Positions 2,029-17,535 of a DNA stretch of 64,000 nt are shown one piece after another. The stretch comes from Hymenobacter armeniacus (lineage in GTDB: Bacteria > Bacteroidota > Bacteroidia > Cytophagales > Hymenobacteraceae). The position numbers and the translations under genes were made by a program. Position 1 is the stretch's first letter; every line of letters starts with the position of its first letter. The notes beneath the pieces are model-generated. The model had not been told where the DNA came from and made no database searches. It saw only the letters and a program-made list of their open reading frames with translations. The stretch is from positions 62,001 to 126,000 of the forward strand of contig NZ_JACXAC010000003.1 in NCBI RefSeq assembly GCF_014699055.1. Direction: 5' to 3'.

Positions 2029-2046
2029 TCGATACCAATGAGAGCT

Positions 2047-2078: not shown

Positions 2079-2272
2079 AATTTTTACTTACCCAAACGAA
2101 GTTTCAACCTTTTTCAAATTGCTGTACATTTCTCCCTTCCAAGAATAGCTCAAAAACAAGTCTGTTAAGCAAATGGCCGTGAAGATTTAGCGCTGTTCTT
2201 AACAAAAAAGAACTGCTAGTTCACCTCGGCTTCCGCAACACAGCGAGCATTTTCCCTTTTCCCCTAGTACTT

Positions 2273-3277
2273 ATGACTGTTTGGGCCCTGAAAAATCCGA
2301 CTGCCCAAGAGCATGTCGCCTTCGTTGCCGCTTCCTTAAAACAAGGCCTTTCCCGGTTTGGATGGAGTTACATCCACCGGTGCGACCTCTGGCAATTAGA
2401 CGAACTACCTTGGAGTGAACTAGATGAGGACCAAACGGACTGTTACAAAAAGGCCCATTTCCTGCTAGCCGTAAAGCCTGGTGACTGGGTGGTCCACATT
2501 AACGTGCCCTCTTATGGGCTTTGCACGGCTGCTCAGGTAATCGGTGGCTACGCGTTTGATTCCGCGCCCAACGAAGTGGATGACTTCCGCCATACCCTGA
2601 AAATCGAACTTTCAACCCTGCTTGAGTTTGACCGCAACGACGCCAACGTGCTGCCGAGCATCAGCAACCGGCTGCGCCTGCAGGGGCGTTTTTGGCGTAT
2701 TGGTCAAGTTGCCGAATTTGAGCAGTCCATTGCCAATTTAACTCACCGAGCGGTGGTGTTGCCGCCCAACCAACGCGCGGAGACTTACCACCTGCGCAAC
2801 GATTTCGGGCCGCTGCTAACGGACCTTACCGGCAAAATTCAGAAGAATAACCCGCGGGGCAAACTCGAGGAGTTCATGGCCGAGGTGCTGCGCCAAGTGC
2901 CGGGCGTCGACGACGTGGAAGAACATGGTAAACACAAAGGGTGGGGCACTGACAACGGGGCTGACCTGATTGTACACTATCAAACGGGCCTCCCGCTTCC
3001 TGGCTTAAGAAAGGCCGCCAAGCTTGTTGTGCAGGTGAAATCCTACACGGAAACGCACTGGGACATGGAGGCGATTCATCAAATTAAGACGGCAATTGAC
3101 CACTTCGGGGCCGATGCGGGCTTGATTGTCACGACCGCGCAGCCCTCCAAAGAGTTCAAGCAAGCATTCGAGTTAGCCAGTACCGAGCTTGCGGAAAAGG
3201 GTAAACTCATCGGCTTGATAGGGGGCGATGATGTGGCCCGTTTCGTGTTAAAATTTGGCGGAGAAATAATCTTATAA
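2273..3277 (+). CDS. Mrr-like restriction endonuclease
   Basis: 334 aa. The C-terminal third is an Mrr-type catalytic domain: D231 in GADLIVHY and Q254-V-K256 in LVVQVKSY form the D...QxK signature, followed by helices and an IVTTAQPS strand typical of Mrr cores. The N-terminal ~160 residues (W-rich, with KPGDWVVHINVPSYGLCTAAQVIGGY) look like a small beta-rich PUA/EVE-like fold; in Mrr-type enzymes such domains often read modified bases, so a modification-dependent enzyme is a reasonable inference. It is transcribed divergently from the upstream nuclease operon across 244 bp. It should cut DNA in the cytoplasm. Confidence 0.75.
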   Translation: MTVWALKNPTAQEHVAFVAASLKQGLSRFGWSYIHRCDLWQLDELPWSELDEDQTDCYKKAHFLLAVKPGDWVVHINVPSYGLCTAAQVIGGYAFDSAPNEVDDFRHTLKIELSTLLEFDRNDANVLPSISNRLRLQGRFWRIGQVAEFEQSIANLTHRAVVLPPNQRAETYHLRNDFGPLLTDLTGKIQKNNPRGKLEEFMAEVLRQVPGVDDVEEHGKHKGWGTDNGADLIVHYQTGLPLPGLRKAAKLVVQVKSYTETHWDMEAIHQIKTAIDHFGADAGLIVTTAQPSKEFKQAFELASTELAEKGKLIGLIGGDDVARFVLKFGGEIIL

Positions 3278-3423
3278 CGCCAAACAAAGGCAGGCTCATT
3301 AATCCGCTGGCCGGCAGAAATAGTGGACCTTAATGCCAAGAAGAATACTTTCTTTAACACACATAAATTGGCGGTGCGTCAGCATCGATGAGATTGTATG
3401 CCCTCATGTCCTTTCATCGTAGC

Positions 3424-3464
3424 TGTCCCAGTTGCATTTTGGGACATCAGTGTCCCATCGGGAC
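3424..3464. promoter_or_regulatory. Cluster of alternating TGTCCCA/TGGGACA half-sites
   Basis: TGTCCCA (3424-3430), TGGGACA (3440-3446), TGTCCCA (3451-3457) and GGGAC (3460-3464) alternate in orientation just upstream of the 3506 start. The layout suits a regulator binding site. The same TGTCCC core recurs at 7490-7518 and 11319-11350. Confidence 0.45.
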
Positions 3465-3505
3465 GGCAGCTAATACCCGCGACTTTTTTATATTCTTCAC
3501 GCCAT

Positions 3506-4312
3506 ATGAATACTACGGTACTAGACATCAAGCGAAATAATGCCACGCAACGAGTTATCACTGCTGCTAAACAACTGCTAAAACGCGCTAAGGCGGCTGG
3601 CCAGCATACCAATCTCACCGAAGAAGATACCCAGTACTGGGAGGGAGTCTACTTTCACGAAGCGGCTAAATACCAAATTCATCTATCCGAATTTCAGGAC
3701 AACTGGGGCAGCGTGTTGTTCGGCTTGCCAGTTGAAGGCTTCGAGCCGGTTCGGCTCGGCGACGTAGTTATGGAACTTGAAAAGCTGGGGGTCGCGGACT
3801 TGGTTGACATCGAGTATCTGGAAGATGTCTTCCGCGACTTACGCTTTCGGCGGGAGCAGCAGGGTGCCATTCCCGCACCGCACGAGGATAAAATCTTTCG
3901 CTGGCTGCAGGAGCAAAAGAAGAAATACCGAAAACAAGGCCCGGCATCGCCCCCGGATACCGGCTACGATTGGTTGTTCGAGATGGGCCTGGGCGAAGTA
4001 AAGCAGCGCGATGCGGCCAATAAAGTCTTGTGCCCGCCGCACACATGGCTGGAAATTGACGAGCTGGCGCAACGCGTAGGCATCATCAAAGAGTCAAAAG
4101 AAAAAAAGTTTGCTTTGACGGAATTGAAGAAAAGTGCGGTTACGGGTTTCGCCGAGGCGATGAGAGCACACGGTATGCTCAGGGGTGGACTCTCAGCACT
4201 TCATAAAGTGCTGGGTGAGCGGTACGGTGTCGTTGTCAATACCGACCGGCCGACCAAGACTCGCACAGAGTATTTTGACATAACCCGCGGCTTTTTAAAG
4301 GGCAAAAAATAA
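3506..4312 (+). CDS. Protein of unknown function
   Basis: 268 aa from the ATG at 3506. A longer in-frame start at 3398 would translate the palindrome cluster, so I prefer the shorter form. The protein is soluble, with no signal peptide or membrane segment. It has a basic N-terminal helix (TAAKQLLKRAKAAGQ), an acidic middle (LGVADLVDIEYLEDVFRDL), a basic coiled stretch (RWLQEQKKKYRKQG) and a C-terminal region that may be DNA-binding (LEIDELAQRVGI, RPTKTRTEYFDITRGFLKGKK). I do not recognise a family. It follows the Mrr gene on the same strand by about 230 bp and precedes the integrative-element module, so it could belong to either. Confidence 0.6.
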   Translation: MNTTVLDIKRNNATQRVITAAKQLLKRAKAAGQHTNLTEEDTQYWEGVYFHEAAKYQIHLSEFQDNWGSVLFGLPVEGFEPVRLGDVVMELEKLGVADLVDIEYLEDVFRDLRFRREQQGAIPAPHEDKIFRWLQEQKKKYRKQGPASPPDTGYDWLFEMGLGEVKQRDAANKVLCPPHTWLEIDELAQRVGIIKESKEKKFALTELKKSAVTGFAEAMRAHGMLRGGLSALHKVLGERYGVVVNTDRPTKTRTEYFDITRGFLKGKK

Positions 4313-4423
4313 CTTTTTTTACTCCTAAGGCCCGTCATTTCGCTACCCAAGCCCCGTTTGCACGTGCCGGGGCTTGACCGCCGTGGCGCGCTTCGGGCAG
4401 GTTTGTGCCGTCGTTTGACTCCT

Positions 4424-4816
4424 ATGTCGGCGGCAGCACTCATGGACCTCCCCCTATACATTCCGTTAACGCTTCCGCAACTGGAAGCCCGACTGGCCGC
4501 CGTCGTGCGCCAGGAACTCCATCACCAGCAAACGCACTCGCCGGGCCCAGCACCCACACTGACGCCAGTAGAGGAGCTGCTCTCGCCCGCCCAGGCCGCC
4601 GAGTTCTTCGGCGTTTGCAAAGGCACCGTCTTCGAATGGTTGCGGCGCGGCCTGCTCAGTGCGGCCGCCGTGAAAGTGGGCGGCAAGCGCTACTTCAAAC
4701 GCAGCGCCCTAGCCACGGCCGGTACCCCCGACCAACGACCGGACGGCCGGCGCCAGACTTCGCGTCGGGTCGCGGGCATGGGTGACAACAAGGGCGTGCA
4801 ACCTAAAGCCTGGTAA
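4424..4816 (+). CDS. Excisionase-like helix-turn-helix protein
   Basis: 130 aa from the ATG at 4424; 4442 is an alternative, and 4358 gives an unlikely longer form. The centre matches the HTH_17/MerR-like DNA-binding fold of Bacteroidota excisionase-type proteins: LLSPAQAAEFFGVCKGTVFEWLRRGLL, then a wing (VKVGGKRYFKRSAL). The flanks are low-complexity and Pro/Arg-rich. It is the first gene of a tight same-strand set: the primase-like gene starts 5 bp after its stop. Such proteins accompany tyrosine integrases in Bacteroidota integrative elements and act as directionality factors or regulators. Confidence 0.75.
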   Translation: MSAAALMDLPLYIPLTLPQLEARLAAVVRQELHHQQTHSPGPAPTLTPVEELLSPAQAAEFFGVCKGTVFEWLRRGLLSAAAVKVGGKRYFKRSALATAGTPDQRPDGRRQTSRRVAGMGDNKGVQPKAW

Positions 4817-4821
4817 GCGCC

Positions 4822-5709
4822 ATGAAAAGCAACAATCATGTGCTCTTGCTCTGCATCCTGCAGGTCGAGCTGCGGCGCGGTAATACGTACGCCTTCGATT
4901 TCATCGCTAAGCTGCTGCGGTCTTACGGCTTCGCACGGCCCAGCTGGTTGGTGCGGCAACTCATCAAGTGGCCGCTCCTGCACGGCCCGCTGGATGCGTT
5001 AGCGTTGTTGGAAGACCCTCTAGCCCGGGTGAACCCCGCGGAATCGCAGCCGCTCCTGGAAAAGCTGCAACGCGTGGCCGGTGATGCCCTAATCGCCGCC
5101 GACAGCTCGGTTGCGCCCGCCGCTACCACTCCATCGCATAAGTTCAGCCTCTATGCGGGGCCCATCAGCAACACCACGCCGCACGTCACCATCAACCTGT
5201 ATCGCTTGTGGCGACAGATTGTGAGGCCAAAGCCGCGCCTGCAGGCCATGCTGGCGGAGGTCCGGGCCAAATACGCTCCAAAGGGCAAAAACGAAGCTTA
5301 TTGCCGCGCGAAAAGCCAACTGCCCTACGTCACGTTTGCGGGTGTTTTTACAAAGCGCAACGCCGCGGGCCTCGAGTGCCCCTCCGGCCTGGGCGTGCTC
5401 GATTACGACCATTTCCCCGACGTCAAAAAGCTGCGTGCTGAGTTAATCAACAACGAAGAATGCCGCAACATGCTGGCCCTGGTGTTCGTGAGCCCTTCGG
5501 GGCGCGGCCTGAAGCTGGTGGTGCGCCTGCCCGAGGATGCGCCGGATTACGCCACGGGCCTGCGCACTGTGCACGAGTGGCTGAAGCGGCACTACCCGGT
5601 GCTGGGTGAGTTCCACGACAGCGCAGGTCTGGACATCGCCCGCGCGTGCTTTCTCTCCTACGACCCGGACGCCTGGCTGCACGACGACTTTATGCCTAAA
5701 GGCGAATAA
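4822..5709 (+). CDS. BT4734/BF3469 family (VirE N-terminal, primase-like) protein
   Basis: 295 aa. The C-terminal ~200 residues carry the motifs of this family, which belongs to the archaeo-eukaryotic primase fold: GLGVLDYDHF with D194 and D196, SPSGRGLKLVV as the nucleotide-binding turn, and FHDSAGLDIARACFLSYDPD at the end. The N-terminal ~100 residues are variable. In Bacteroidota mobile elements it is regularly encoded beside a DUF3987 ATPase, and the pair is thought to support element replication. Only 74 bp separate its stop from the next start, which suggests one transcript. Confidence 0.85.
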   Translation: MKSNNHVLLLCILQVELRRGNTYAFDFIAKLLRSYGFARPSWLVRQLIKWPLLHGPLDALALLEDPLARVNPAESQPLLEKLQRVAGDALIAADSSVAPAATTPSHKFSLYAGPISNTTPHVTINLYRLWRQIVRPKPRLQAMLAEVRAKYAPKGKNEAYCRAKSQLPYVTFAGVFTKRNAAGLECPSGLGVLDYDHFPDVKKLRAELINNEECRNMLALVFVSPSGRGLKLVVRLPEDAPDYATGLRTVHEWLKRHYPVLGEFHDSAGLDIARACFLSYDPDAWLHDDFMPKGE

Positions 5710-5783
5710 GCCACCGCTTGCTGGAACGGCGCGCTGCTTCGGTGCGCCGTTGCCAGGCCTTTTTCTCCCCACTTTTTCAATCC

Positions 5784-7508
5784 ATGCAAAAGCCCTTAAC
5801 CATGGCGCAGCTTACCGCGCACAGCCCTCGTCCTGTGGCGACGCCGCCGCGTACCCCGCACCAACCCCCAACACCATCTCCCGGGGCCGTCGTGCCAGCT
5901 ACCGCTCCCGACAAGGCCCTGCAGAGGTGCCTGTCATATAGCCCTGAACGCCCCACGGGCAGCGGCAGCGGCCGCAATAACTGGTTGGCGAGGCTAGCTT
6001 ATTTCTGCAACGAGAAGGGCGTGCCGGAAGACGTGTTACTGGCTTACGCCCTCGCGTGGTGGACCGAACCTGATTTCACGGCCGAGGAAATCACCCGCGT
6101 AATTCGAGGAATTTACCGTCGCAAGGCCAGTACGCACAACAGCAAGCCCTACTACGCGCCGCGCCGGGGCCACCAGTCCCCGCAGGAGCCCCGGCCGGCC
6201 GCCACGGCCGAAGCTTACGACAAGCCGAGTGAGGAAGGGCCTGCGCCGTTCCCGTCCGGTATATACGCCCGTCTGCCCGATTTTCTTCAACGGGTTTGCG
6301 AGCCGTTTAAGGGCCGCGAAGCCGATGTGTTGCTCACGGCAGCCATTGCCGTCGTCTCGGGCGTGTTTCCCTCGGTGTCGGGCACCTACGACCGGCACCA
6401 GCTCGGCCTTAATCAGTATGCTTTCATTGTCGCCCCCGCCGCCAGCGGCAAAGGCACCATGAAGTGGGCCGAACGCCTCGTGCGGGTTCCGCACCGCGCC
6501 CTGGTCGAGGCCAGCCAGGCCGCACACCGGCAGTACGAGGCGGAGCTTGCGCAGTGGAAGGCGCAGCCGCGCGGCGCCCGTGCAGCCGCCGGCCCACCGC
6601 CAGAAGCCCCGGCGGCCAAGCGGTTGCTGGTGCCAGCCGACAGCAGCTTCGCCGCCATGGTGCAGATTTTAGCTGATAACGAGGGCCGGGGCATCATCTG
6701 CGAAACAGAGGGTGATACGATGGCCGATGCGCACCGGAATAAGGATTGGGGCAACTACTCCACGTTGCTGCGCGTCGCCTATCACCACGAGCCCTACAGC
6801 ACGGCCCGCAAGGGCGAAGGCCTGCTGGAACTAGCTCGCCCGGCGTTGTCGGTGGTGCTCACCGGCACGCCCAACCAGGTCCGAAACCTGATTCCAGACC
6901 CCGAGAACGGTCTTTTCTCCCGGTTTTTATTCTATACCTTCACCAGCCCACCCGAATGGCGCGATGCCTTCGCCCAGGGCGTCCCCCTCGACGGTCATTA
7001 CGAGCAACTAGGCCAGGAGCTGGCCCGCATGATGGAACTCGTGTCCGGCCCGGTGCAGGTGACGCTCACGCCCGCCCAGCAAGCCCAGCACACTGACTTG
7101 TTTGGCGCCTGGACCGTTGAACTGGCCGCGGCCGACGTCAAACACAGCTCGCTGCGCCGGCTCGGCGTGGCGGCCTTCCGCCTGGCCATGCTGCTGACGG
7201 TGCTGCGCTGCTTTGAGAATGGCGAGCAGCCAGCCGGTACCCTCGTCTGCGACGATGAAGACTTCGCCACCGCGCTAACACTAGTTCGGGTCTTCTGGCA
7301 ACACACCGACCACGTGCTGGCGAGCTTACCGGCCCCGATGGCACCAGCCATGGGCGTAAAACGCGACGATGCCGCCCTGCGCGCCAGAGCACAGGAACTG
7401 CGGGCCGCGGGAAACTCGCTGCGCAAAATCGAAGCAGAATTGGGGGTTTCAAAATCAACTCTCAACCGCTGGTTTCCCGGCGAGGCGTCGAGTGTCCCGT
7501 CCCTCTAA
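5784..7508 (+). CDS. DUF3987 / VirE-type P-loop protein of the mobile element
   Basis: 574 aa from the ATG at 5784; the frame opens at 5718 but the extra residues look non-native. After a Pro-rich leader comes a primase-C-terminal-like helical domain (RNNWLARLAYFCNEKGVPEDVLLAYA, ending EEITRVIRGIYRRK). The DUF3987 ATPase follows, with the phosphate loop APAASGKGT near residue 222 and downstream ICETEGDT and VVLTGTPNQV. The last ~40 residues form a second HTH (LRKIEAELGVSKSTLNRWFPG). It is a replication or mobilisation ATPase working with the preceding primase-like protein. The stop codon lies in the loop of an inverted repeat. Confidence 0.8.
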   Translation: MQKPLTMAQLTAHSPRPVATPPRTPHQPPTPSPGAVVPATAPDKALQRCLSYSPERPTGSGSGRNNWLARLAYFCNEKGVPEDVLLAYALAWWTEPDFTAEEITRVIRGIYRRKASTHNSKPYYAPRRGHQSPQEPRPAATAEAYDKPSEEGPAPFPSGIYARLPDFLQRVCEPFKGREADVLLTAAIAVVSGVFPSVSGTYDRHQLGLNQYAFIVAPAASGKGTMKWAERLVRVPHRALVEASQAAHRQYEAELAQWKAQPRGARAAAGPPPEAPAAKRLLVPADSSFAAMVQILADNEGRGIICETEGDTMADAHRNKDWGNYSTLLRVAYHHEPYSTARKGEGLLELARPALSVVLTGTPNQVRNLIPDPENGLFSRFLFYTFTSPPEWRDAFAQGVPLDGHYEQLGQELARMMELVSGPVQVTLTPAQQAQHTDLFGAWTVELAAADVKHSSLRRLGVAAFRLAMLLTVLRCFENGEQPAGTLVCDDEDFATALTLVRVFWQHTDHVLASLPAPMAPAMGVKRDDAALRARAQELRAAGNSLRKIEAELGVSKSTLNRWFPGEASSVPSL

Positions 7509-7518
7509 CGGGACACTC
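7490..7518. repeat. Perfect 11-bp inverted repeat across the DUF3987 stop codon
   Basis: GAGTGTCCCGT (7490-7500) and ACGGGACACTC (7508-7518) flank a 7-nt loop that includes the TAA. It may act as a transcript-end hairpin, although no T-run follows. It carries the TGTCCC core found at two other places in this accessory region. Confidence 0.5.
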
Positions 7519-8020
7519 CACGAGGCGGCACTGCGCTGAACCAGCGGCCACTGACCGACTAGTGGGGGCGACAAAAAAATGATCGTGGCACCCTGAGCTT
7601 AGCTGGGGCGGCCCCCCACTTAATAGGCGGCGGTGCCGCGATGCGCTGGCGGGTGTGACTAATGGTGGCTAGAGCGTGGTTCGTGGTGCGCTGTAGTAAC
7701 AAGAAAAAGCCTTGAAGCGCCCAAAAGTTCTTCAGCGGCCAGCGGGCCATGCCGTTTTTTAAGCGCCTTGTCGAAGTACCTCTGCAGGGCCGAAGCTGGC
7801 GCGGTAGGCGCACCCGGAGCCGACCAGGAGAGCAGAACACACAGACGTTGAGGCTCCACAAAGAGCAACAAGTCGGGGCCTTTGCTGAAGGTCAGGGCGA
7901 TTGAATTCCGCTAGGAGGGAAGATGAATTTGTGGTGGAACCCGAAAAATTATGGCCGATGTTTTTTCAATTCGCCCATTTTTTTCGCTGCTGTAAAGGCT
8001 ATAAGTAATTGATTAAAAAC
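7519..8020. other. 502-bp stretch without a supported gene
   Basis: Both strands were read. Minus-strand frames near 7559-7871 are short, lack a convincing start and match nothing I know. One, reading ..LLLFVEPQRLCVLLSW.., could be a decayed remnant. The last 90 bp are more AT-rich, consistent with a promoter for the integrase, but no clear boxes stand out. Confidence 0.4.
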
Positions 8021-9292
8021 ATGGTAAGCATTACCTTTTTTCTGAAGGAACCCCGGCAGGACCGACCCACCCCGCTCATTGCCCGCCTGGCTTTCCAGGG
8101 CCAGAAAGTGAAGGTCTACGTGGGCCTAAAAGTTGAGCCTCGGAAGTGGATTCAGGCCGCGCAGCAATTTCAAACGCGGGGGAATAACCAGGCTGGCCGC
8201 CTTAACGATATGTTGGCGGCCATGCGCACCCGCCTGGAGAATTACTACCTCGATGCTATAGCTGCCGGGACCCTGCCCACGGCCGAGCAACTGCGCCAAG
8301 CCATCGAACCGGAGTTAACGCCCGCTGAAGCACCGGCGCCGCCCCTCGCGGCCGAAGTCGAGCCCGAAGCACCCGCCGGCCCGGGGCTGCTCGCGGCCTA
8401 CCTGGCCTGGGACGTTGCCCTGCAGCACCAGGTACGCCCCGCGACCCGCGCGAGCAACGCGACGACCTACAAGCACATCTGCCACTTCCAGGAGCGCAGC
8501 GGGTACCGCGTGGATTTCGACACGATGACGCCGGTTTTTGCCGCGCAGTTCTGCACCTACCTGCTGAACGAGGTCGGCCTGACCGATAACTCGCTGGCCA
8601 AGATTCTGACCCGGCTCAAGGCTTTTCTGCGGTACGCCCACGAACACGGCCTGACCGAGCGCGCCGATTTCAGGTTCATCAAATGGAAGCGGAGGGAGCC
8701 CGACATTTTGACGTTGACCCTGGCCGAATTGCGGGACGTGGAGCAGCTGGACCTGACAGACTATCCGGGGCTGGCCAATGCCCGCGACCTGTTCCTGCTG
8801 GCTTGCTACACCGGCCTGCGCTACTCCGATTTGGTTTCGCTGCGGCCCGAGCATTTGCAGGGCGAGCGGCTGCGGCTCCGCACCTTAAAAACGCGCGAAC
8901 TGGTTACGATTCCGCTCCGGCCCGAAGCGCGGTGCCTCCTGGCCAGCTGGTTCGCCGGCACGTTGTACAAGGTGAGTAACGTGGGCCTGAATGTAGCCCT
9001 GAAGGAAGTCGGGCAGCGGGCTGGGCTCAATGCAGTGGTCGAGCGCGTGCGTTACCGCGGGGCCCTGCGTCAAACCGAGACGTTTCGCAAATGGCAGTTG
9101 ATTTCCTGCCACACGGCCCGCCGGACGTTTGTGACCCTGGCCCTGGAGCAGAAGATTCGCCCGGAGGTCGTGATGAAGGTGACCGGGCATTCGAGTTGGG
9201 CGACATTCCGCCGCTACGTGAGCATCAGCGAACGCACCGTAGAGCAGGAGTTCGCGGCCGTGTACGGCGCAAGCGAGTCGCCAGAAGGCTAG
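8021..9292 (+). CDS. Tyrosine site-specific integrase
   Basis: 423 aa from the ATG at 8021; a TTG at 8009 is the alternative. It has the three-part layout of Bacteroidota tyrosine recombinases: an N-terminal arm-binding domain (SITFFLKEPRQDRPTPLIARLAF), a SAM-like core-binding domain (~residues 130-220), and a catalytic domain with R267 (CYTGLRYSDL), H364 and R367 (HTARRTF), H390 (TGHSS) and nucleophile Y399 (FRRYVSIS). All key residues are present, so it should be active. It should integrate and excise the element carrying the preceding HTH, primase-like and DUF3987 genes. I found no attachment-site repeat in the window. Confidence 0.92.
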   Translation: MVSITFFLKEPRQDRPTPLIARLAFQGQKVKVYVGLKVEPRKWIQAAQQFQTRGNNQAGRLNDMLAAMRTRLENYYLDAIAAGTLPTAEQLRQAIEPELTPAEAPAPPLAAEVEPEAPAGPGLLAAYLAWDVALQHQVRPATRASNATTYKHICHFQERSGYRVDFDTMTPVFAAQFCTYLLNEVGLTDNSLAKILTRLKAFLRYAHEHGLTERADFRFIKWKRREPDILTLTLAELRDVEQLDLTDYPGLANARDLFLLACYTGLRYSDLVSLRPEHLQGERLRLRTLKTRELVTIPLRPEARCLLASWFAGTLYKVSNVGLNVALKEVGQRAGLNAVVERVRYRGALRQTETFRKWQLISCHTARRTFVTLALEQKIRPEVVMKVTGHSSWATFRRYVSISERTVEQEFAAVYGASESPEG

Positions 9293-9441
9293 CCCTGACG
9301 GGTGCGAGGAAAGTTACCTGATTCCGGGGCCAGGGTAGGAGGGGGTAGGTTCTCGAAACGCTCCACGAGCAAATCATCAACGGCAACGGGGGTGGCCTCG
9401 CTAAGGGCCGGAGCCTTCCGCGACGCTGCCACAAAGAAGGC

Positions 9442-11211
9442 ATGACCGATGATGCGGGCGTATTGCCCTCGAACGCACCGCGACCAAACCCCACATTGCC
9501 GAAACCAGCGGCTCCTTGGGCCCCTAAGGATGGCTGCACCCTCTGGCTCACTGCCCCAGCCCTAATGACTCGCCGTACTTTTCCTGCCGCCGCAACCCGC
9601 CTGCTGCCCGCCACCCTTGACCTGGACGCGCACCTGGCCGCCCAGCCGCCCTCGTTCGCGCCTTTTTCGCGCGATGCCCTCGCCCAACTGCTGCACCTAG
9701 TGGCCACCCTGCCGCTGACAAACCGCAAGCTGGCGAACCGCCTGCGCCACACCGATGGCTACCTGCCGCTCAGCGCCGTTTTCTTGAAGCGCTGGCTGCC
9801 CAACTATGCCGCCTACCTGCGGTATGCCTGCGCCACGGGCTTGCTCGAAACCGACAACTGGTTCGTGGTTGGCGGCAAGTGCCGTAGCTACCGCCTGGGC
9901 GCCAGGTTTCGCAACGCCGGGGGCGCGAGCCGCGCCGTGGTTCTGCGCGACCCGGCTTTTCTGCGGCGCTGGTACGGCCGCTACCAGCAAGGCTGGGGCG
10001 AACGGCAGGTTCCCTGGGCGACCTACGTGGCCTTACTCGACTGGCTCTGCCCCAACTCTTCGCCCCTGCGTATCCGGCAGGCAGAAGCGCTGGCCTTCAG
10101 CGAAGCCGACCGGGCCCGGCAACTGGCCTCCCTTGACCAGCAACAGGCCTTGCCAATCCCCGCCGCTGAGGTGGGTGCGCCCGCTGAGCGGGCAGCAAGC
10201 AACGGCTTGCCTGCCCCGGTGCAGCTGACCACGCAGACCGAACTCGTACTCGATGAGGAAGCCGTCGACGAAGCTGTTTGGGGGGAGCTCCTGGCGGCTG
10301 GTACCCCCGCGCACCTGACCGTGCCCGACCGGCAGGAAGTCAAGCCCCACGAACGCTACTGGCAGCGGTTCACGACCATTCAGAAACTGGCGGAGCGAGA
10401 TTTCGGACCCATCTTCGACCGGCAGGGGCGCCTGCACACGGCCTTGACCAACGCCAGCGGCAATTTGCGTCAATTTATTTATGCCGAAGGATTTGCCCCG
10501 CTCTGGGCTCTGGACTTGCGCAATTCTCAAATTTATTTGGCCACGCTCTTGCTGCGCCCCGACTTTTACGCTGCACCCTTCACCCGCGGGCGACGGGGCA
10601 GCCGCGTGCCCCTCACGCTGCAGGTGGAAGGCCAGCGCCAGCACGCCGAGTTGCAACGCTGCGACCCTGGGTTCTTCTCGACGGTTCGCCGCTTATTGCC
10701 CCCGGGCGGTTCGCACGGGGCCGAGGCCTTGCCGCCCGACGTGGAACAATTTCGGGCCTGGGCCAGCACCGGCGACTTCTACGCCCAGGCGCAAACAGCC
10801 CTGAACCAGGCATTGGGCCAAGAGCTCATTACGGCGGAGGGCAGGAAACAGCAGTTGCTGAAAATCCTGTTTTCGCGCAATAGCACCCGCACGCGTGGAA
10901 AGGCGGCCTTTGCCCAACTTTTTCCCACCGTTGCGGCCGTATTCACGGCTTACAAAGCGGCCGACCACCGCGTACTGCCTTGTTTGCTGCAGGCCGTTGA
11001 GGCTCACTTATTTTTGAAGGTACTGGCCCCGCGCCTCCGCCAGCGTTTTCCGGAGATGTGCCTGTTCACGGTACATGACTCGGTGGTGGTGCCTGCGGAC
11101 CACTTGGACCGGGTGGAGGCCCTGCTGGTGCAGGTACTTACGGCCCAGGTAGGGCTCACCCCGCAGTTCCGGCGCACGGCCTGGGGCAGCGACCCGGACT
11201 GGGCGCGCTAG
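9442..11211 (+). CDS. Polymerase-like protein with T7 RNAP / family A palm motifs
   Basis: 589 aa; an ATG at 9565 is an alternative start. The C-terminal half has four ordered motifs resembling single-subunit polymerases: D326-R-Q-G-R330 followed by LHTALTNASGNLRQF (compare DWRGR in T7 RNA polymerase), motif A with D358 (LDLRNSQIYLATLL), a motif-B-like K469-x7-F477-S478, and motif C H545-D546-S with VVVPADH (compare HDSFGTIPAD in T7). The N-terminal ~250 residues include LPLTNRKLANRLRH, which looks HTH-like. The family comparison is from memory. It could be a replication or priming polymerase of the integrative element, a transcriptase, or a degenerate relative. It follows the integrase on the same strand by 149 bp. 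Confidence 0.5.
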   Translation: MTDDAGVLPSNAPRPNPTLPKPAAPWAPKDGCTLWLTAPALMTRRTFPAAATRLLPATLDLDAHLAAQPPSFAPFSRDALAQLLHLVATLPLTNRKLANRLRHTDGYLPLSAVFLKRWLPNYAAYLRYACATGLLETDNWFVVGGKCRSYRLGARFRNAGGASRAVVLRDPAFLRRWYGRYQQGWGERQVPWATYVALLDWLCPNSSPLRIRQAEALAFSEADRARQLASLDQQQALPIPAAEVGAPAERAASNGLPAPVQLTTQTELVLDEEAVDEAVWGELLAAGTPAHLTVPDRQEVKPHERYWQRFTTIQKLAERDFGPIFDRQGRLHTALTNASGNLRQFIYAEGFAPLWALDLRNSQIYLATLLLRPDFYAAPFTRGRRGSRVPLTLQVEGQRQHAELQRCDPGFFSTVRRLLPPGGSHGAEALPPDVEQFRAWASTGDFYAQAQTALNQALGQELITAEGRKQQLLKILFSRNSTRTRGKAAFAQLFPTVAAVFTAYKAADHRVLPCLLQAVEAHLFLKVLAPRLRQRFPEMCLFTVHDSVVVPADHLDRVEALLVQVLTAQVGLTPQFRRTAWGSDPDWAR

Positions 11212-11318
11212 GCCTGCTTCGGCGCTACCTGCCCGTAAGGACGGCTTGTGCAATTGCAACCGTCCTCGGCTTTCGCGGCGGTATTGCGCCGATTACGGCC
11301 GCACCGCCCGATTGGTAA

Positions 11319-11350
11319 TTGTCCCGCCGTCCCATTGTCCCGTTGTCCCA
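11319..11350. repeat. Four tandem 8-bp repeats (TTGTCCCR type)
   Basis: TTGTCCCG (11319), CCGTCCCA (11327), TTGTCCCG (11335) and TTGTCCCA (11343) are contiguous and head to tail. Short iterated boxes next to replication-type genes suggest iterons or a clustered binding site. The core TGTCCC matches the inverted repeats at 3424-3464 and 7490-7518. Confidence 0.55.
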
Positions 11351-12387
11351 TGCCACACGGTTGATGTGGGATAGGCGGTATGCTGTTTCCCCGCAGGCTT
11401 TTTTTCTGCCTTTTGGAGGCGGCCATGGCGTGGCTAAGTTGGAGGGTTGGTAACAATGCCGCTCTGTATTGGCTGGGCTCCTTGCTCCAGCGGCCTGGGA
11501 CTCAATGTGGGTAACCGCTCCGGTCGCAGCCCAAGCTTCTTTCCCGTGAGTAAGCTAAAGCTCGCTCGTTAATTCCTTGAAGGACCGATAACACCGAAGC
11601 AGGGAAGGGCTTACGGACTATTTGATTGGGGACGGGTCGGAGGGTCAAGGTTTTTTTACGTAATCCTGACGTGGAATAGCTGAGGCCTTAGCTTCTAGAC
11701 TCTTCGCTTGTTCCGGTAGACTTAGCCCACCCTCGCCGCCGCACGCGGTGGAGGACCTAAACACCCCCTTGAAAATAGACTAAGCGAATACTGCCATACG
11801 GGCATCGAAGCAGCAGTAGTCAGCAGCCCGCCACGCGCGGGGCCGGCTTGTACGAACCCGGGGATAGACTTTAACTTCAGATGGCAACCGTGTAAAGGCG
11901 TGAAGTCCAAGGGCGCCGGAACGTGTACCTTATAGTACTACCCCCCGGCTGGAAGTCAAGCCGCTGATGGAAGAGCTCACTGTTTACGGGGCGCGGTTCA
12001 GCTGCCTTCGAAATATCGGTAGTGCCGCTCCGATAGTAATAGTCCTTTCCAGCTGGGAGAGATAGCCTCGATAGTGGCTGTTAACCCCTTGTTATCAATG
12101 CGTAATGCGGTTTTCACTGCTGCTGCTGGTTCTCGGTCGAATGAGAGCGAAAAGGCTAGGTAAGAAACGATTGCAAAACCCCTTGCGCTGTAATCAGGCC
12201 GCCGGTAAGGGCCGCCAACTGCAGGCCCGCCAGCTGAAATGATAGCGCAATTCAGGAAGAAACGACGCGCTTGTGAATGCTCGAGAACAGGAGCAACCAG
12301 AAAAATTACCTTCTACTGCAGAGGAAGCTCCTGTTCGCAAGAAGAGGTAAAAAACACGGAGGAATTCCTATAAAAAGGCAGTGTGGC

Positions 12388-12419
12388 TTTGGAACTGCGA
12401 ATAATTTATTTTACGTTTT
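12388..12419 (+). promoter_or_regulatory. Candidate Bacteroidota-type promoter for the SLOG gene
   Basis: TTTG at 12388-12391 and TACGTTTT at 12412-12419 (seven of eight matches to TAnnTTTG) are 20 bp apart, the expected spacing. They lie about 120 bp upstream of the SLOG start in an AT-rich stretch. Confidence 0.35.
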
Positions 12420-12541
12420 ATGTGAGTTAAAACACTGAAAAACAAAAAGTTAATGGAAAATAAACCATGCTTTGCCCAAGTTAGGAGCTGTGCTCAGCAA
12501 CAAGCGTTGCCACGGGCAATATCCCCATCACCTCTTAACAA

Positions 12542-12913
12542 TTGCATGATATGCGAGTAGCTGTTATTGGGTCCCGTTCTTTTGCAAACTACGAGCAGCT
12601 GGCCCGCGAATTAGATGCCTTAGCGCTTGCTGAAGGCCAGCCCATTACCCTCATTGTTTCGGGCGGAGCGACCGGGGCCGATACCTTGGCGGAACGCTAC
12701 GCCCGGGAGCGCAGCATCCCCACCCGTGTGTTTTTGCCTGACTTCAAAACCTTCGGCAGGAAGGCAACGCTGGTGCGCAACAAGGACGTGGTATCCGCGG
12801 CCGATGTGGTCTGGGCCGTGTGGGACGGCGTGAGCAAGGGGACAGCACACGCGCTCCGAGAATCCCGGAGACTGGGCATCCGCACCATAGTAGTGGTGCC
12901 TGAACTTCCCTAA
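12542..12913 (+). CDS. SLOG-fold protein, DUF2493 / YspA-like
   Basis: 123 aa; starting at the ATG at 12551 (MRVAVIGSRSF) would fit the family better. It has the SLOG Rossmann pattern: VAVIGSRSFANY at the N-terminus, the nucleotide-binding loop VSGGATGADTLAERYA near residue 42, RKATLVRNKDVV and AVWDG. SLOG proteins bind nucleotides or nucleotide-derived signals, and several work as sensors in conflict systems; DUF2493 members are common on phages and mobile elements. The ligand cannot be read from sequence. It is followed closely by a small unknown gene on the same strand. Confidence 0.8.
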   Translation: MHDMRVAVIGSRSFANYEQLARELDALALAEGQPITLIVSGGATGADTLAERYARERSIPTRVFLPDFKTFGRKATLVRNKDVVSAADVVWAVWDGVSKGTAHALRESRRLGIRTIVVVPELP

Positions 12914-12964
12914 GCGCATTTACGCGCTCTTGCCTCACTCCCAATCCAAGCCCCCACCGGGAAT

Positions 12965-13213
12965 ATGCTTAAAGCTCAACAAAAGCGCCTGCGCCGGGCT
13001 TGCCGGCAACTACGCGGCCAGCAACTACAGCTGCTCACCATGGAACTCGCGGGCGTGGTCGCCGTCACCATCCATACCGTCGGCGAGACGCTCACGGTGC
13101 CGCTCCACGGCGACGCGGCCGCGCAGGTAGCCAACACACTACTGGAGGTGCTGCGGGAGCGACGGCAGCTGCTTCGGCGCGAGGCAACCGTCCTTCAGGC
13201 GGAGTTGATGTAG
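12965..13213 (+). CDS. Small protein of unknown function
   Basis: 82 aa, starting 51 bp after the SLOG gene. It has a basic helical N-terminus (KAQQKRLRRACRQLRGQQ), a short beta-like middle (VVAVTIHTVGETLTVPLHGD) and a C-terminal amphipathic helix (NTLLEVLRERRQLLRREATVLQAEL). It has no membrane segment or signal. A strong hairpin lies 57 bp after its stop. I do not recognise it; co-transcription with the SLOG gene is likely. Confidence 0.5.
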   Translation: MLKAQQKRLRRACRQLRGQQLQLLTMELAGVVAVTIHTVGETLTVPLHGDAAAQVANTLLEVLRERRQLLRREATVLQAELM

Positions 13214-13269
13214 GAGCAAGCCGCCAGGGCGGCCCCACCCGCGCCTGGATAGGGCTGCCCTCATCAAGA

Positions 13270-13310
13270 GCCCGCCGCAAAAGCCACGGGGCAGAGCTTT
13301 TGCGGCGGGC
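13270..13310. terminator. Strong hairpin between convergent genes
   Basis: Perfect 15-bp arms (13270-13284 and 13296-13310, starting GCCCGCCGC) surround an 11-nt loop. It lies between the end of the small plus-strand gene and the end of the minus-strand WG-repeat gene. No clear U-tract is seen on either side, but the position suits a shared terminator. Confidence 0.6.
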
Positions 13311-13319
13311 ACCGTGGCG

Positions 13320-14363
13320 CTAGTACTCCGGACACTTCACGCCGTCGAAGGCAACGCACTTGAACTGTTTGTCCACGTAGAAGAAGCCCCGTTCCGAGGT
13401 AAAAGCCTTGGCCAGTGACTTGCCATCGGGGCCAAATTCGAACTCCGTAATGTTCCAGAAGTTTACGGGCAACACCACCTTGCCGGTGTAATCCACCACG
13501 CCTTCGTAAAACTTGTCCTTCTTAACCCGCAGGTAGGAATCGGTCCAGCTGCCGAACTCGTAGCCGGCCGAGGAGGGGATGACGACGCGCCCCGTTTTGT
13601 CAATCAGGGCCGAGTTGTAGTTGTAGGTCTTGCCCACCAGGAACGTGTAGTGTGCGGTTTTGATGGTCGTCGGGCGCCCGTCCGGGGTGGCAATCCGGGT
13701 GACGGCGTAGCCGTTGCCCAGGTTCGGGCTTTCCGAGCCGTAACAGGTAAGCTTGGAAATTTCCTTGCCCTGGACGTTGATAAAGCCCCAAAAATTACTG
13801 TGTTCGATGCCGTCTCGGCTGTCGTTCCGGACGCACACCCGGGCGATGCCGCCCTGCATGGGCTCGATGCGCAGGTACTTGTACGGGGTCAGCAGCGTCC
13901 CGGCCTTGTTGATTAACGCCGCCCGGCCATTCAAGGCCACTGCGGCGCGGCCTTCGCTGAAATCGGTGACTTCGTCAAACGCATAGGGGATGACCAGCAC
14001 GCCGGCCCGGTTGAGGTAGCCGTACTTGCGGCCGTCGAGGCTCACCCCCGCCAGGCCGTCGTGGAAGTAACCGATGTCCTTGAATTTAAGCGCCGCGATT
14101 TCGCGGCCCGTGGAGTCTATAAGGCCGCAGCGGCCGCCGATGCAGACGCGGGCGCAGCCGTCCTGGAAATCCGAGGCTGCCTCGAAGCGGGGCTTGATGA
14201 CCACGGCCCCGGCCGCGTTCTGGTAGCCGAACTTCTCGCCGCTCATCGTTTGCAGGCGCACGGCGGCGAGGCGTTGGGCGGAGGCGCCGACGCTGAGCAC
14301 AAGCGAGAGGAGAAGCGGGGGCAGGAACCGAAAGGTTACAGCAGAGTAACGAACAACTTTCAT
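13320..14363 (-). CDS. Exported WG-repeat protein
   Basis: 347 aa from the ATG at 14363, which begins a signal peptide (MKVVRYS, hydrophobic LPPLLLSLVLSV, then ASAQ as the likely cleavage site). The mature part is built of WG-type beta repeats: GYQNAAGAVVIKPRFEAASDF, CGLIDSTGREI, YGYLNRAGVLVIPYAFDEVTDF, AALINKAGTLLTPYKYL, WGFINVQGKEI and later copies. WG repeats fold into a beta scaffold whose ligand is usually unknown. It is divergent from an XRE regulator across ~110 bp, which may control it. Confidence 0.8.
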   Translation of the reverse strand: MKVVRYSAVTFRFLPPLLLSLVLSVGASAQRLAAVRLQTMSGEKFGYQNAAGAVVIKPRFEAASDFQDGCARVCIGGRCGLIDSTGREIAALKFKDIGYFHDGLAGVSLDGRKYGYLNRAGVLVIPYAFDEVTDFSEGRAAVALNGRAALINKAGTLLTPYKYLRIEPMQGGIARVCVRNDSRDGIEHSNFWGFINVQGKEISKLTCYGSESPNLGNGYAVTRIATPDGRPTTIKTAHYTFLVGKTYNYNSALIDKTGRVVIPSSAGYEFGSWTDSYLRVKKDKFYEGVVDYTGKVVLPVNFWNITEFEFGPDGKSLAKAFTSERGFFYVDKQFKCVAFDGVKCPEY

Positions 14364-14472
14364 GAAATGAGGGAAAAAGAGGTTAATTCTTGAACCCGCA
14401 AAGAAAATCATTCCGATACTTCTGTACCAAATACGTTACAAGTGGCAATTTTTCTGGCCTCAGCTTGCCGGC

Positions 14473-14703
14473 GTGAAAAACGAGGCAGGCATCCGGGCAT
14501 TCGGGGCCCATCTGCAGCGGCTGCGGGAAGCCCGCGGCTGGAGCCGGGAGGTGCTGGCGCAGTCGGCCGACGTGTCGCGCATGACGGTCTACCGCATCGA
14601 AAAAGCCCAACTGGCGGCCTCGCTGGACGTATTTCTGTCCCTGGCCCACGCCTTGGAAATCTCGCCCCGGGAGCTGATGGACTTCCCGCAGCCTATCAAT
14701 TAG
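14473..14703 (+). CDS. XRE-family transcriptional regulator
   Basis: 76 aa from a GTG start. Almost the whole protein is a Cro/CI-type HTH: FGAHLQRLREARGWSREVLAQSADVSRMTVYRIEKAQLAASLDVFLSLAHALEISPRELM. It has no second domain. It is divergent from the WG-repeat gene, and a role in repressing that gene or itself is inferred from position only. Confidence 0.85.
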   Translation: MKNEAGIRAFGAHLQRLREARGWSREVLAQSADVSRMTVYRIEKAQLAASLDVFLSLAHALEISPRELMDFPQPIN

Positions 14704-15288
14704 CATGGTCTGGTGGACGGCTGGTCCCAGCACACCAAAACATCCGAACGTGTAAGGATTACGCGTAATACTTCTCCTCTGTTCCTGGGGCGATAAGGAC
14801 TTGCGTGAGCACATGAAATCGCCTGCCATGGTCACCGACCATCACTCGTTCTCCATCGTTTGCAACTCCACCATAGCGATCGGCACTGACATCGGAATTT
14901 GAGGCAAATTAGTTCGAGCTTGCTCCGCTTATTCTAATGCGTCGCCAATCCAATGCTCTTGGCAGCGCTGGGGCCATGCGGCTAGTTAAATGCTGCCTTT
15001 CGCCTTGGCGTATGTATGAATACCTGAAATACTGAATATTGTGCATGAGATGGCTCATCTAACACGTACGCACCATATATCAACTCTACAGTTTGGTACT
15101 GCAACAGGTCCCATCCATCACAACGGAACGGTCAGGCTGCCTCAGCCCAGCTAGTCGAGCACCCGAACCGCAGTACAATATGCGGAGCTTTACTAAAATT
15201 ATGGGCATGATGAGTAGCTTTAGCATCCTCATTTGACAAGCGTGCAATTTGCCGTCTGTCCTGAGGTGATTATACTCGTCAGTTGCGT
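14704..15288. other. 585-bp stretch without a supported gene
   Basis: No coding frame is convincing on either strand, and composition is mixed. The promoter for the PIWI gene should lie in the last 150 bp, but no clear pair of boxes is visible. Confidence 0.35.
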
Positions 15289-17535
15289 ATGAAATCTAAC
15301 TTCTTCCCACTACAATTCAGCTTTGACGAGTTTCACATCCAGCGCCTCCCTTATCAAAAGGAAGTACTAGACAGGTTACGACAGCAACACAACGCGACCC
15401 ACTCTTTTTTTCGTCGCGACGATTTTATCTACATCTCACCTGGCATTGAGGCTGCATCCAATTTGGGTGACGTAGTCAGACTAAGCGTCAGCAAGCACCC
15501 CGACGTCGTGGCTTCGTTGATTCGCCACATTTTCTTTCGGGCTATCAAAGACAAGGTACCTGACCTGCTGCCTTCTTTTCATCCGTTTACCTTCTCCGCA
15601 AAGCAGGATAAGTACGATTTGGCGTTGAACATGCTGCCGGAGCGGCTGCAAAATATCATCACCTACAAACGTATCACAGAAGTCCAACTGCGTTTCAACG
15701 AAACAGAAGAACAGCCACAGTTTGTGGCAGTAGTGAATCATCGGTACCAGTGGACCATTGACCGCACTTGTGAGCAGTTGGTGAACGAAGGCCTGGACAT
15801 ACTGGGCCTTGAAGTCAACAGTTCCACTTCGCCCGACTACTCGGACGGCATTGTAGCTCCCGAACTGACTTTGCTCGGCAGGGTAATGGCAGTAGAAGGC
15901 GACCATGCTACAGTGGGCACCAATCAAGGGCCCACCCAATACGCCCTGTCTGACCTGACCCTTTTCAAATCAAAGGAGAATATTATTTACTACCTCGGCT
16001 CACTGATAGGGGAAGGGAAGGCCGAGCAGATAGTGAACCACATCAAACAAGACGAATCACGACGACTGCAGCCTGATGTTGTGATGCGCGAGATTGAGGA
16101 GGTGGGCGCATGGCTAAGCCGCCTTACGTACCGGAATTTTGATTCGTTTTGCTTTACTATCGGAACTGATAATGCAATTCCGGGCCAAGCAGGTATTCGG
16201 TTAGAGGAGCCCAAACTCATCTTTGACGTTAGTGGCACCAACATCCACGCAACGCCCACTACCGGCCTCAACACCTTCGGGCCATACAGCCGCTCCACAT
16301 CATTCGACGTGAACTCGCCCAAGGTGCTGGTGGTGTTTCATCAGCGTAATGCAGGCCATTTTGCAGAGTTTTTGGCCCAGCTTAAGAGCGGGATTACGCA
16401 GCATGCCTATTTCGCTAATGGAATGGTGCGCAAGTACGGCCTGACGGCCATGGAATACCGCATTGCCGAATTAACGGATTACACCGTGCCGCAATATCTG
16501 GCTACCATCAATAAGCTGTTGCGCGCCGAAAACGGCTCGTTTGATATTGCCATCATCGAGACGTGCGAGGATTTCCGGCAATTACCGCCCGTGGATAACC
16601 CCTATTTTCAGGTGAAGTCCCTGCTGTATTCGCATGGCATTTCCACGCAGTTCGTCCGGGCTGATACCGCTCAGAAACCAACTTATAGCATCGACAGCAT
16701 CGCCCTGCAGATGTATGCTAAGTTGGGCGGTACGCCTTGGACGGTGCCCACTGGACCTAGTGTCGACCATGAGCTCGTGATTGGCATTGGTAGCTCCATT
16801 CTGCGCAGCAATCAATACGCAGGGGCGACGCAGGCACGAATCGTTGGCATCAGCACTTTCTTCTCGGCTGATGGCAAATACATCTCCAACCGCAGGACCC
16901 AGGATGTGCCCTATGATCAGTACTTTGACGAGCTACTGCATAACCTGAAGGTGTCAATTGACGAGATCTCCAATAATTACAGTTGGAGTTCAGGCGACCG
17001 CATCCGCATCATCTTCCATATTTTCAAACCCATCAAGCACATTGAGGCTGATGTGGTGGCAAGCCTGATGGCACAGTACCAAGAGTTTGACATCAAGTTC
17101 GCGTTTGTCACCTTTTCTGAATTTCATCCCTATGTCCTGTTCAATGAGAACGAGCGGGGAGAATTCGATGCCTACCGCAAGGTGTATAAAGGGACGCATG
17201 TACCTTGGCGGGGCTACAACGTGCTGCTGGACCCACGCTCTTGCCTCGTGCAGATGCTAGGTCCACGCGAGATGAAAACTTCACGTCATGGGGCATCACG
17301 GCCGGTGCTGGTGCGCATTCACCGCAGTTCTACCTTCGTCGACCTGACCTATGTGGTGCAGCAGGCCTTCAAGTTCACCCGCCTGTCTTTCCGCACCTTT
17401 TATCCCGCGCATTCGCCTGTTACGCTGCTTTACTCCAACATGCTGGCCCGGCAGCTAAAAGAATTACGGGGCATACCCGGGTGGAATTACGACGTAGCCA
17501 GCCGCCAGCTTCGGCACAAGAAATGGTTTCTTTAG
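15289..17535 (+). CDS. Catalytically inactive PIWI / prokaryotic Argonaute
   Basis: 748 aa from the ATG at 15289 (TTG at 15283 is an alternative). The C-terminal ~350 residues are MID-PIWI: QVKSLLYSHGISTQFV (guide 5'-end pocket region), ALQMYAKLGGTPWTV, then the PIWI core LVIGIGSSILRSN, RIRIIFHIFK and a typical end, RTFYPAHSPVTLLYSNMLARQLKELRGIPGW. The first catalytic Asp is replaced by G501 (IGIGSS), the third position reads F579 in HIFK, and the final His-type site is changed, so no slicer activity is expected. Length and the short PAZ-like region fit a long, inactive (long-B-like) pAgo. It should sense nucleic acid with a guide and trigger a partner. The next gene starts inside its 3' end. 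Confidence 0.75.
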   Translation: MKSNFFPLQFSFDEFHIQRLPYQKEVLDRLRQQHNATHSFFRRDDFIYISPGIEAASNLGDVVRLSVSKHPDVVASLIRHIFFRAIKDKVPDLLPSFHPFTFSAKQDKYDLALNMLPERLQNIITYKRITEVQLRFNETEEQPQFVAVVNHRYQWTIDRTCEQLVNEGLDILGLEVNSSTSPDYSDGIVAPELTLLGRVMAVEGDHATVGTNQGPTQYALSDLTLFKSKENIIYYLGSLIGEGKAEQIVNHIKQDESRRLQPDVVMREIEEVGAWLSRLTYRNFDSFCFTIGTDNAIPGQAGIRLEEPKLIFDVSGTNIHATPTTGLNTFGPYSRSTSFDVNSPKVLVVFHQRNAGHFAEFLAQLKSGITQHAYFANGMVRKYGLTAMEYRIAELTDYTVPQYLATINKLLRAENGSFDIAIIETCEDFRQLPPVDNPYFQVKSLLYSHGISTQFVRADTAQKPTYSIDSIALQMYAKLGGTPWTVPTGPSVDHELVIGIGSSILRSNQYAGATQARIVGISTFFSADGKYISNRRTQDVPYDQYFDELLHNLKVSIDEISNNYSWSSGDRIRIIFHIFKPIKHIEADVVASLMAQYQEFDIKFAFVTFSEFHPYVLFNENERGEFDAYRKVYKGTHVPWRGYNVLLDPRSCLVQMLGPREMKTSRHGASRPVLVRIHRSSTFVDLTYVVQQAFKFTRLSFRTFYPAHSPVTLLYSNMLARQLKELRGIPGWNYDVASRQLRHKKWFL

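Follow-up and report, generated by a model that had tools for sequence, protein, structure and literature searches.

A predicted A-family polymerase resembling TV-Pols beside a tyrosine integrase in Hymenobacter armeniacus

In Hymenobacter armeniacus (Bacteroidota), a stretch of 64,000 nucleotides from the forward strand of contig NZ_JACXAC010000003.1 (positions 62,001 to 126,000; assembly GCF_014699055.1), hereafter the window, carries an open reading frame (ORF) for a protein of 589 amino acids, P0001, 149 base pairs (bp) downstream of a tyrosine integrase gene on the same strand (Table 1). An earlier note on this DNA, made from the letters alone, had drawn attention to the integrase neighbour and to motifs like those of single-subunit RNA polymerases and family A polymerases. 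The neighbour is there, and all the residues quoted are found in P0001 in the order given (D326-R-Q-G-R330, D358-LRN-S362-Q363, K469-x7-F477-S478, and H545-D546-S547-VVVPAD553), within an uninterrupted frame. The ordered pattern D-x2,3-SQ, K-x7-[FY], HDS occurred in three of 20,000 residue shuffles of P0001, a figure that serves as a guide and not as a probability, the pattern having been composed after sight of the sequence. Searches of P0001 against Pfam, PHROGs, and NCBIfam at E 0.1 and against PADLOC at E 0.001 gave no match, and PDB sequence searches made with the protein or its alignment gave no convincing one. Among the 29 sequences that make up a profile of the family (A1), 14 weakly match PHROG 4756, a family of no assigned function (best E 3.1e-7), and one matches Pfam DNA_pol_A (E 0.014); at E 1, Pfam returned 22 families for these proteins, one member each and mostly unrelated to polymerases.

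The motifs extend well beyond P0001. Profile matching gave 194 ORFs, of which 181 are nearly full-length and 124 remain after thinning at 80% identity. In this non-redundant set the Arg at R330 is kept in 122 members, and the catalytic residues are nearly fixed: in motif A, D358 is Asp in 122 and S362 is Ser in 114; in motif B, K469 is Lys in 123 and F477 is Phe in 90 and Tyr in 24; in motif C, H545 is His in 120, D546 is Asp in 123, and S547 is Ser in 100. At least one of R330, D358, K469, and D546 is missing in three members. The position of Q363, five residues after the motif A Asp, is Gln in 118 members, His in five, and Thr in one. Between motifs B and C, Q517 is Gln in 116 and E520 is Glu in all 124. 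The D326-xx-GR element singled out by the earlier note stands only in part; its residues are present and its Arg is nearly invariant, whereas the D326 column holds a majority of Asp without being nearly invariant. Four residues before K469, 98 members have Arg and nine have Lys; four residues after it, 78 have Phe, as in Pol I. P0001 itself has Ala (A465) and Leu at these places.

Relatives were found chiefly in Bacteroidota. A protein search matched P0001 in 31 of 149 related genomes, some of the matches in other genomes being interrupted by stop codons, and a paralogue about 30% identical over the C-terminal part lies on another contig of the same genome (5.28 Mb, 11 contigs). The conserved motif A pattern, taken from a further alignment (A3), located 79 loci in genome records, nearly all Bacteroidota by title, and 10 loci in viral contigs; these 89 loci were chosen by motif A together with an overall tblastn match, so motif A counts taken from them are biased upward. 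The outliers are metagenome-assembled genomes (MAGs) of Rickettsiales (two loci), Akkermansiaceae, and Ignavibacteria, where binning errors are possible. Pattern searches with P0001 alone in genome and viral contigs found no relative, and searches with the protein brought up six phage records (partial, from uncultured phages) and one plasmid record. At the nucleotide level, megablast of window positions 547-16000 against plasmids gave no match.

The predicted structure points in the same direction as the motifs. An AlphaFold2 model of P0001, built on 67 aligned sequences, reached a mean predicted local distance difference test score (pLDDT) of 84.1 and a predicted template modelling score of 0.81, with pLDDT below 50 at residues 1-42, 259-276, and 287-296. 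Foldseek placed chains of Taq and Klenow-type DNA polymerase first among PDB entries (E 3e-6, probability 1.00); whole-chain template modelling (TM) scores are low (0.2-0.3, and 0.27 for the best), since the match covers the polymerase part. VIA-align gave Z 13.4 for the apicoplast DNA polymerase (268 residues aligned, root mean square deviation 3.8), 12.9 for Bst, 12.4 for T7 DNA polymerase, 12.3 for Klenow, and 11.9 for Pol theta. The tool's own note warns that helical proteins may reach a Z near 13 by chance, a caveat countered by the agreement of the motifs and by a single superfamily filling the best 50 rows listed, all of them DNA polymerases. Viral models were also matched, best A0A516L5C2, which has no name (E 9e-20), then a "putative DNA polymerase I" of an uncultured marine phage (E 1.3e-15) and, at E 1e-4, a barbavirus protein. 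As a palm would predict, D358 lies within strand 354-359 of the model and D546 between strands 542-544 and 547-551. A helical region ahead of them resembles a thumb; structural alignments often start near residue 180-190, and the two internal low-confidence segments fall in this region. By its model, then, P0001 is a protein of the A-family right-hand polymerase fold.

Profile-profile comparison, which the earlier note had proposed alongside structure prediction, likewise bore out its assignment to the A family. Against 27 Bacteroidota Pol I sequences (those of 30 loci that pass a D[YF]SQ motif filter), hhalign aligned the family with a score of 39.6 (P 2.8e-4), from the fingers R-x3-K through the HD of motif C in order; 60 column-shuffled Pol I profiles reached at most 20.8, a reversed Pol I profile 21.1, and an integrase profile 15.4. 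Motif A reads DYSQIELR in 24 and DYSQVELR in three of the 27 Pol I sequences and DGSCSG in T7 RNA polymerase, so that the position five residues after the Asp is Glu in Pol I, Gly in T7 RNA polymerase, and Gln in the P0001 family. This Glu is the steric gate by which Pol I excludes ribonucleotides, and the Gln may have this function in the P0001 family. The Q517-x2-E520 element is without an exact counterpart in Pol I, which has QGTAAD or QGSAAD in 25 of the 27 sequences.

No nuclease domain was matched by Pfam in P0001 at E 0.1, and the N-terminal part is predicted to fold as a winged helix. In a separate model of residues 45-238, built with 87 of the 123 available relatives, pLDDT reached 91.8, and the winged-helix assignment of this model is fairly firm. 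Foldseek returned nothing for it at E 0.001, the first rows being ArsR-type and other proteins at E around 0.1. The best VIA-align rows were 4pt7 (Z 7.0, 100 residues, 4.4 Å), 4pql (7.0), and 5kbj (6.4), whose titles name an initiator, the N-terminal domain of a DNA binding protein, and a Rep-DNA complex; a Fur protein (5.8) and 4pta, another initiator (5.7), came next. We take these initiators to be of the plasmid RepA type. A Z of 7 is middling, and the resemblance of the modelled domain to replication-initiator domains is a weak one, to be treated as a lead.

Table 1. Features of the window discussed in the text, with the basis of each assignment.
Feature	Position	Strand	Basis or remark
pPIWI_RE-type protein (PprRE, Y, REase domains)	within 547-3277	-	
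Mrr_cat/PDC-S02 restriction-like protein	within 547-3277	+	
HTH_17 protein	4358-4816	+	Pfam; in some relatives between integrase and polymerase
BT4734-like N-terminal / PrimPol-type protein	4822-5709	+	Pfam, NCBIfam; possibly same element as polymerase
DUF3987 protein with PriCT_1 (PHROG 3022 "DNA primase")	5718-7508	+	Pfam, PHROGs; possibly same element
Tyrosine integrase (Arm-DNA-bind_5, Phage_int_SAM_5, Phage_integrase)	8009-9292	+	Pfam
Predicted A-family (TV-Pol-like) polymerase gene, P0001	9442-11211	+	Open ORF; relatives, model, fold matches
Predicted N-terminal winged helix, residues ~45-155	9574-9906	+	Separate model
Putative thumb-like helical region, residues ~171-317	9952-10392	+	DSSP and pLDDT of model
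R330, conserved Arg	10429-10431	+	Conservation; presumed place in Pol I hairpin
Motif A, D358-x4-Q363	10513-10530	+	Conservation; comparison with Pol I and T7 RNA polymerase
Motif B, K469-x7-F477	10846-10872	+	Conservation; A465 at the usual Arg, four before K469
Q517-x2-E520	10990-11001	+	Conservation of Glu
Motif C, H545-D546-S547	11074-11082	+	Conservation across members
Class II prokaryotic Argonaute	15283-17535	+	PADLOC pAgo_II, E 2.6e-241
Protein adjoining Argonaute	17205-18425	+	Aga_Unknown, E 6.1e-28
SIR2_2 protein, 1358 amino acids	18507-22583	+	After the two preceding genes
Upx-like protein, 1257 amino acids	23353-27126	+	PADLOC Upx, E 1.8e-44

The link between polymerase and integrase recurs across the family. 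In 91 loci, namely L104-L193 and the window, ORFs lying no more than 7 kilobases (kb) from the polymerase were clustered by single linkage, clusters other than the integrase being named from one representative each. An integrase-type ORF is present in 67 of the 91, a raw count without a genome background rate; the nearest one lies on the same strand within 1 kb upstream in 30 loci (the window included), on the opposite strand within 1 kb downstream in 13, and farther away in 24. Single linkage may have admitted a few other proteins to the integrase cluster; phmmer with the window integrase alone finds 58 of its 69 members and Pfam confirmed two, while a single motif expression, which matched four of 69, was too strict and was not used. 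Where a same-strand integrase stands about 400-620 bp upstream (23 loci), the interval to the first Met of the polymerase frame is 431-474 bp in 18, and its consensus holds a small ORF, identified as HTH_17 by translation and Pfam in L169 and found also in L326, from the genus of the window. Integrase and polymerase distances correlate (r 0.66, equalled in none of 5000 permutations; 46 loci thinned from 61), partly through shared host descent. Among 20 further stretches, 19 of the window's genus and one of its order, a window-like integrase occurs in nine; the order integrase, HTH_17, polymerase is seen in L326 and L338, a PrimPol-type relative adjoins the polymerase in L323, and the ORF picker masked the polymerase ORF itself in L320 and L325.

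Many of these modules lie at tRNA genes. Among the 66 integrase loci of L105-L193, a set that is unthinned and includes close relatives, 38 have a tRNA gene no more than 1 kb from the integrase-polymerase module, and in 37 of them its 3′ end is towards the module. The mapped flavobacterial loci run in the order tRNA-Ser, integrase, small ORF, polymerase, and variable cargo (no tRNA was found in L183). The cargo after the polymerase includes a TonB receptor with FUR in L141, L144, L156, L169, and L174, and methylase genes in L157, L158, L159, L161, and L183. In several flavobacterial tRNA-Ser islands the TonB receptor, the FUR regulator, and further genes form one cassette, in the place where sister islands carry methylases. 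The 25 bases after tRNA-Ser are identical in L141, L144, L156, L158, L161, L169, L174, L177, L178, and L179, and may mark an attachment site or an arm site of the island. Over the 91 loci the recurrent clusters are an AAA_24 ATPase (18), DUF3871 (17), N6 methylase (14), N6_N4 methylase (10), TonB receptor (10), resolvase (9), and UvrD helicase (6). In one Bacteroidaceae MAG (L150, 318-4012) the UvrD gene and the stop-to-stop frame of the polymerase run on the same strand and share a few bases, an apparent helicase-polymerase pair.

In the window itself, the genes upstream of the integrase include an HTH_17 protein, presumably excisionase-like, followed by PrimPol-type and DUF3987 genes that may belong to the polymerase's element. 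The G+C content is 0.59-0.66 over 4-12 kb; it is lower in 1-4 kb (0.51-0.59) and in 15-24 kb (0.49-0.57) but returns to 0.59-0.62 at 13-15 kb, which leaves the 4-12 kb block suggestive and no more. A class II prokaryotic Argonaute, the protein that adjoins it, and a SIR2_2 protein follow on one side and a pPIWI_RE-type and a restriction-like protein precede on the other; with the Upx-like protein farther downstream, defence-like genes flank the island on both sides.

Polymerases of this kind have been described before. TV-Pols were defined in bacterial mobile elements, Bacteroidetes included, beside resolvases, lambda-type integrases, or transposases, and were predicted to act as primase plus polymerase (Iyer, Abhiman and Aravind, 2008; PMC2579912); the "undescribed" enzyme of the earlier note was therefore too strong a term. 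The P0001 family resembles them in its minimal A-superfamily palm and fingers without nuclease domains, its conserved Arg and two Asp (PMC2579912), the R-x3-K fingers motif of most members (P0001 itself has K469 and A465), and its mobile-element context, integrases being joined by a resolvase cluster in nine of 91 loci. TV-Pols are further marked by a conserved Asp in the fingers (PMC2579912). The P0001 family differs at the N-terminus, where P0001 models as a winged helix with strands and an all-helical domain was predicted for a subset of TV-Pols (PMC2579912). The winged-helix front, the Gln at the gate place, the phylum-wide spread, and the frequently tRNA-linked integrase-polymerase core are new relative to the TV-Pols of 2008, and a search of the open-access literature by title and abstract start found no paper on such an island core. 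A direct comparison was made with MAP_030 of the Microcystis phage LMM01 (L103, 22749-24293), chosen by its motifs and transposase neighbours (the text of PMC2579912 names no gene) and likely to be this phage's TV-Pol. The match to the P0001 family was not significant (E 0.067; profile P 0.11, outside the catalytic part); both have L-L-Q-x-x-E at the same place (LLQRIE in MAP_030), and motifs B and C of MAP_030 are ambiguous when aligned into the family. Read by eye in this ambiguous alignment, its motif C may be HNS and not HDS, in which case the phage copy might be inactive.

A studied precedent is CCPol-MP of SCCmec, an A-family primase-polymerase beside recombinases (PMC10061031; PMC7581432). 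CCPol with MP is reported to synthesize DNA without a primer (Bebel et al., PMC7581432) and to prime only together with this partner (PMC10061031); as of 2020 it was the sole biochemically studied TV-Pol known to the authors of that year's paper (PMC7581432), and related putative primases were added to the picture by Rice (PMC10061031). In CCPol-MP and the PolA-SSB examples, as in the P0001 family, an A-family polymerase stands at an island's recombinase locus, and the cargo of the island is exchangeable. The PolA-SSB examples described there, however, are from Bacillota, have an OB-fold partner between polymerase and helicase, and mostly accompany large serine recombinases (PMC7581432; PMC10061031), where the P0001 family has a tyrosine integrase and, in some loci, HTH_17; CCPol also keeps E710 and F762 of Pol I (PMC7581432), the E710 place being Gln in the P0001 family. 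Divergent phage PolAs (PMC11348598) share a divergent PolA palm without a working exonuclease (divPolA1 and divPolA2) and, in divPolA2, an N-terminal domain of its own; divPolA2 proteins were proposed there as possible RNA polymerases. They differ in being phage-borne, and by eye the divPolA2 protein AUR84708 has D-F-K-A-F-E at motif A and F-D-E at motif C; relatives of AUR84708 were sought for a profile and none was found.

Considering the open frame, the conserved motifs, the A-family fold of the model, the integrase linkage, and the tRNA adjacency of many relatives, P0001 is probably a TV-Pol-like A-family polymerase responsible for copying a mobile island's DNA. Its most likely role is that of replication primase/polymerase in an island core made up of integrase, often HTH_17, and polymerase, and its membership in the TV-Pols proper is, from fold, motifs, and context, likely rather than proven. 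We infer that P0001 is active, uses deoxynucleoside triphosphates, and starts strands without a primer, and that the winged helix acts in initiation. In such a scheme, the tyrosine integrase and the small, excisionase-like HTH_17 protein would excise the island from its chromosomal site, and the N-terminal winged helix would find or hold DNA in or close to the integrase-polymerase region. The duplex may be opened by a helicase or ATPase, perhaps the window's DUF3987 protein. In the catalytic domain, D358 and D546 would bind two metal ions, with K469 and F477 on the fingers helix, and the domain would make or extend DNA, so that the excised form could be kept or multiplied before reintegration.

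However, several observations weigh against this interpretation. With Gln in place of the steric-gate Glu, P0001 may differ from Pol I in its sugar choice, and the absence of the fingers Arg, together with the Leu four after K469, means that the P0001 copy may be weaker or altered. Linkage is incomplete: 24 of the 91 loci and 11 of the 20 genus and order stretches lack an integrase-type or window-like integrase ORF, respectively, and only in 22 of 46 loci do the three nearest integrases include the nearest polymerase. A helicase gene, a neighbour described for TV-Pols, is not constant in these loci (UvrD in six of 91). In the window there is no clear flanking repeat and no tRNA beside the integrase-polymerase module; a second copy of the 19-base tRNA-Ser end is missing in 15 of 15 genomes, and long attachment (att) repeats were looked for in the window and in the relatives' loci and none was found. 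In the 14-kb stretch examined for the relative carried by a Hymenobacter plasmid there is no integrase-type ORF, and the plasmid has its own replication initiation protein and ParA, as well as a recombinase family protein, which weakens the idea of the polymerase as the plasmid's sole initiator.

Alternatively, P0001 could be a repair or gap-filling polymerase that needs a primer and completes ends or gaps while the island integrates or is transferred, neither priming strands nor acting at an origin. This would agree with Pol I as the closest fold of the model, with the link to an integrase, and with the inconstant helicase. The host already carries Pol I, however, and the N-terminal winged helix suggests a role at a DNA site. 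In a similar setting CCPol depends on its partner for priming (PMC10061031), so that missing priming alone would not exclude replication. We regard this reading as unlikely.

It is improbable that P0001 is a single-subunit RNA polymerase that transcribes its element, in the way that T7 RNA polymerase transcribes its phage, and recognizes promoters through the winged helix. The two share the order of R, D, K, and HDS of their common superfamily, the motif C HDS being the same, and the proposal made for divPolA2 would offer a precedent. Against 20 T7-like RNA polymerases, the family profile aligned weakly and at motif C only (score 26.9, P 0.023; at most 23.9 in 60 shuffles). Pol I itself fails against T7-like RNA polymerases by the same method (P 0.27); the weak match, while giving RNA polymerase kinship no advantage, therefore does not speak against it. 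The closeness to T7 RNA polymerase seen in the earlier note was not upheld: the "PAD" after motif C occurs in two of 123 members, P0001 among them, and there lies one residue nearer the Asp (HDSVVVPAD against HDSFGTIPAD), and this likeness was rejected. Furthermore, the family's Gln at motif A contrasts with the Gly of T7 RNA polymerase, and its usual Phe four after the motif B Lys (Leu in P0001) with Met. The best 50 structural rows listed point to DNA polymerases, although this by itself excludes nothing. The Tyr eight residues after the Lys in T7-like enzymes is usual in Pol I too, so that F477 of P0001 does not separate the two, and the Pfam family RNA_pol is uninformative, with no match in the genome and none in 14 controls. 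Finally, a decayed or repurposed polymerase-fold protein, for example a DNA-binding regulator or defence factor without catalysis, would suit the lost fingers Arg, the stop codons in some matches elsewhere, and the defence-rich island of the window, but is highly improbable given the near-fixed catalytic Asp, Asp, and Lys in the relatives and the absence of a PADLOC match.

Beyond the TV-Pol-like island polymerase favoured here, a bolder proposal, which we consider rather unlikely to hold in full, is that one polypeptide combines an initiator-like winged helix with an A-family primase-polymerase, marks where replication starts, and synthesizes the first DNA. It would thereby supply the replication function of a minimal island core, by which cargo for defence and metal uptake spreads among the Bacteroidota at tRNA genes, and the Gln would allow both ribonucleotide and deoxyribonucleotide starts. 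P0001 is unmatched in Pfam, PHROGs, NCBIfam, and PADLOC, yet the A1 profile detects its family in 51 of 120 genomes of the genus, 31 of 395 of the class, and 15 of 296 of the phylum. With its frequent integrase link, this set from harmless laboratory Bacteroidota makes the question of whether mobile islands carry A-family primases directly testable.

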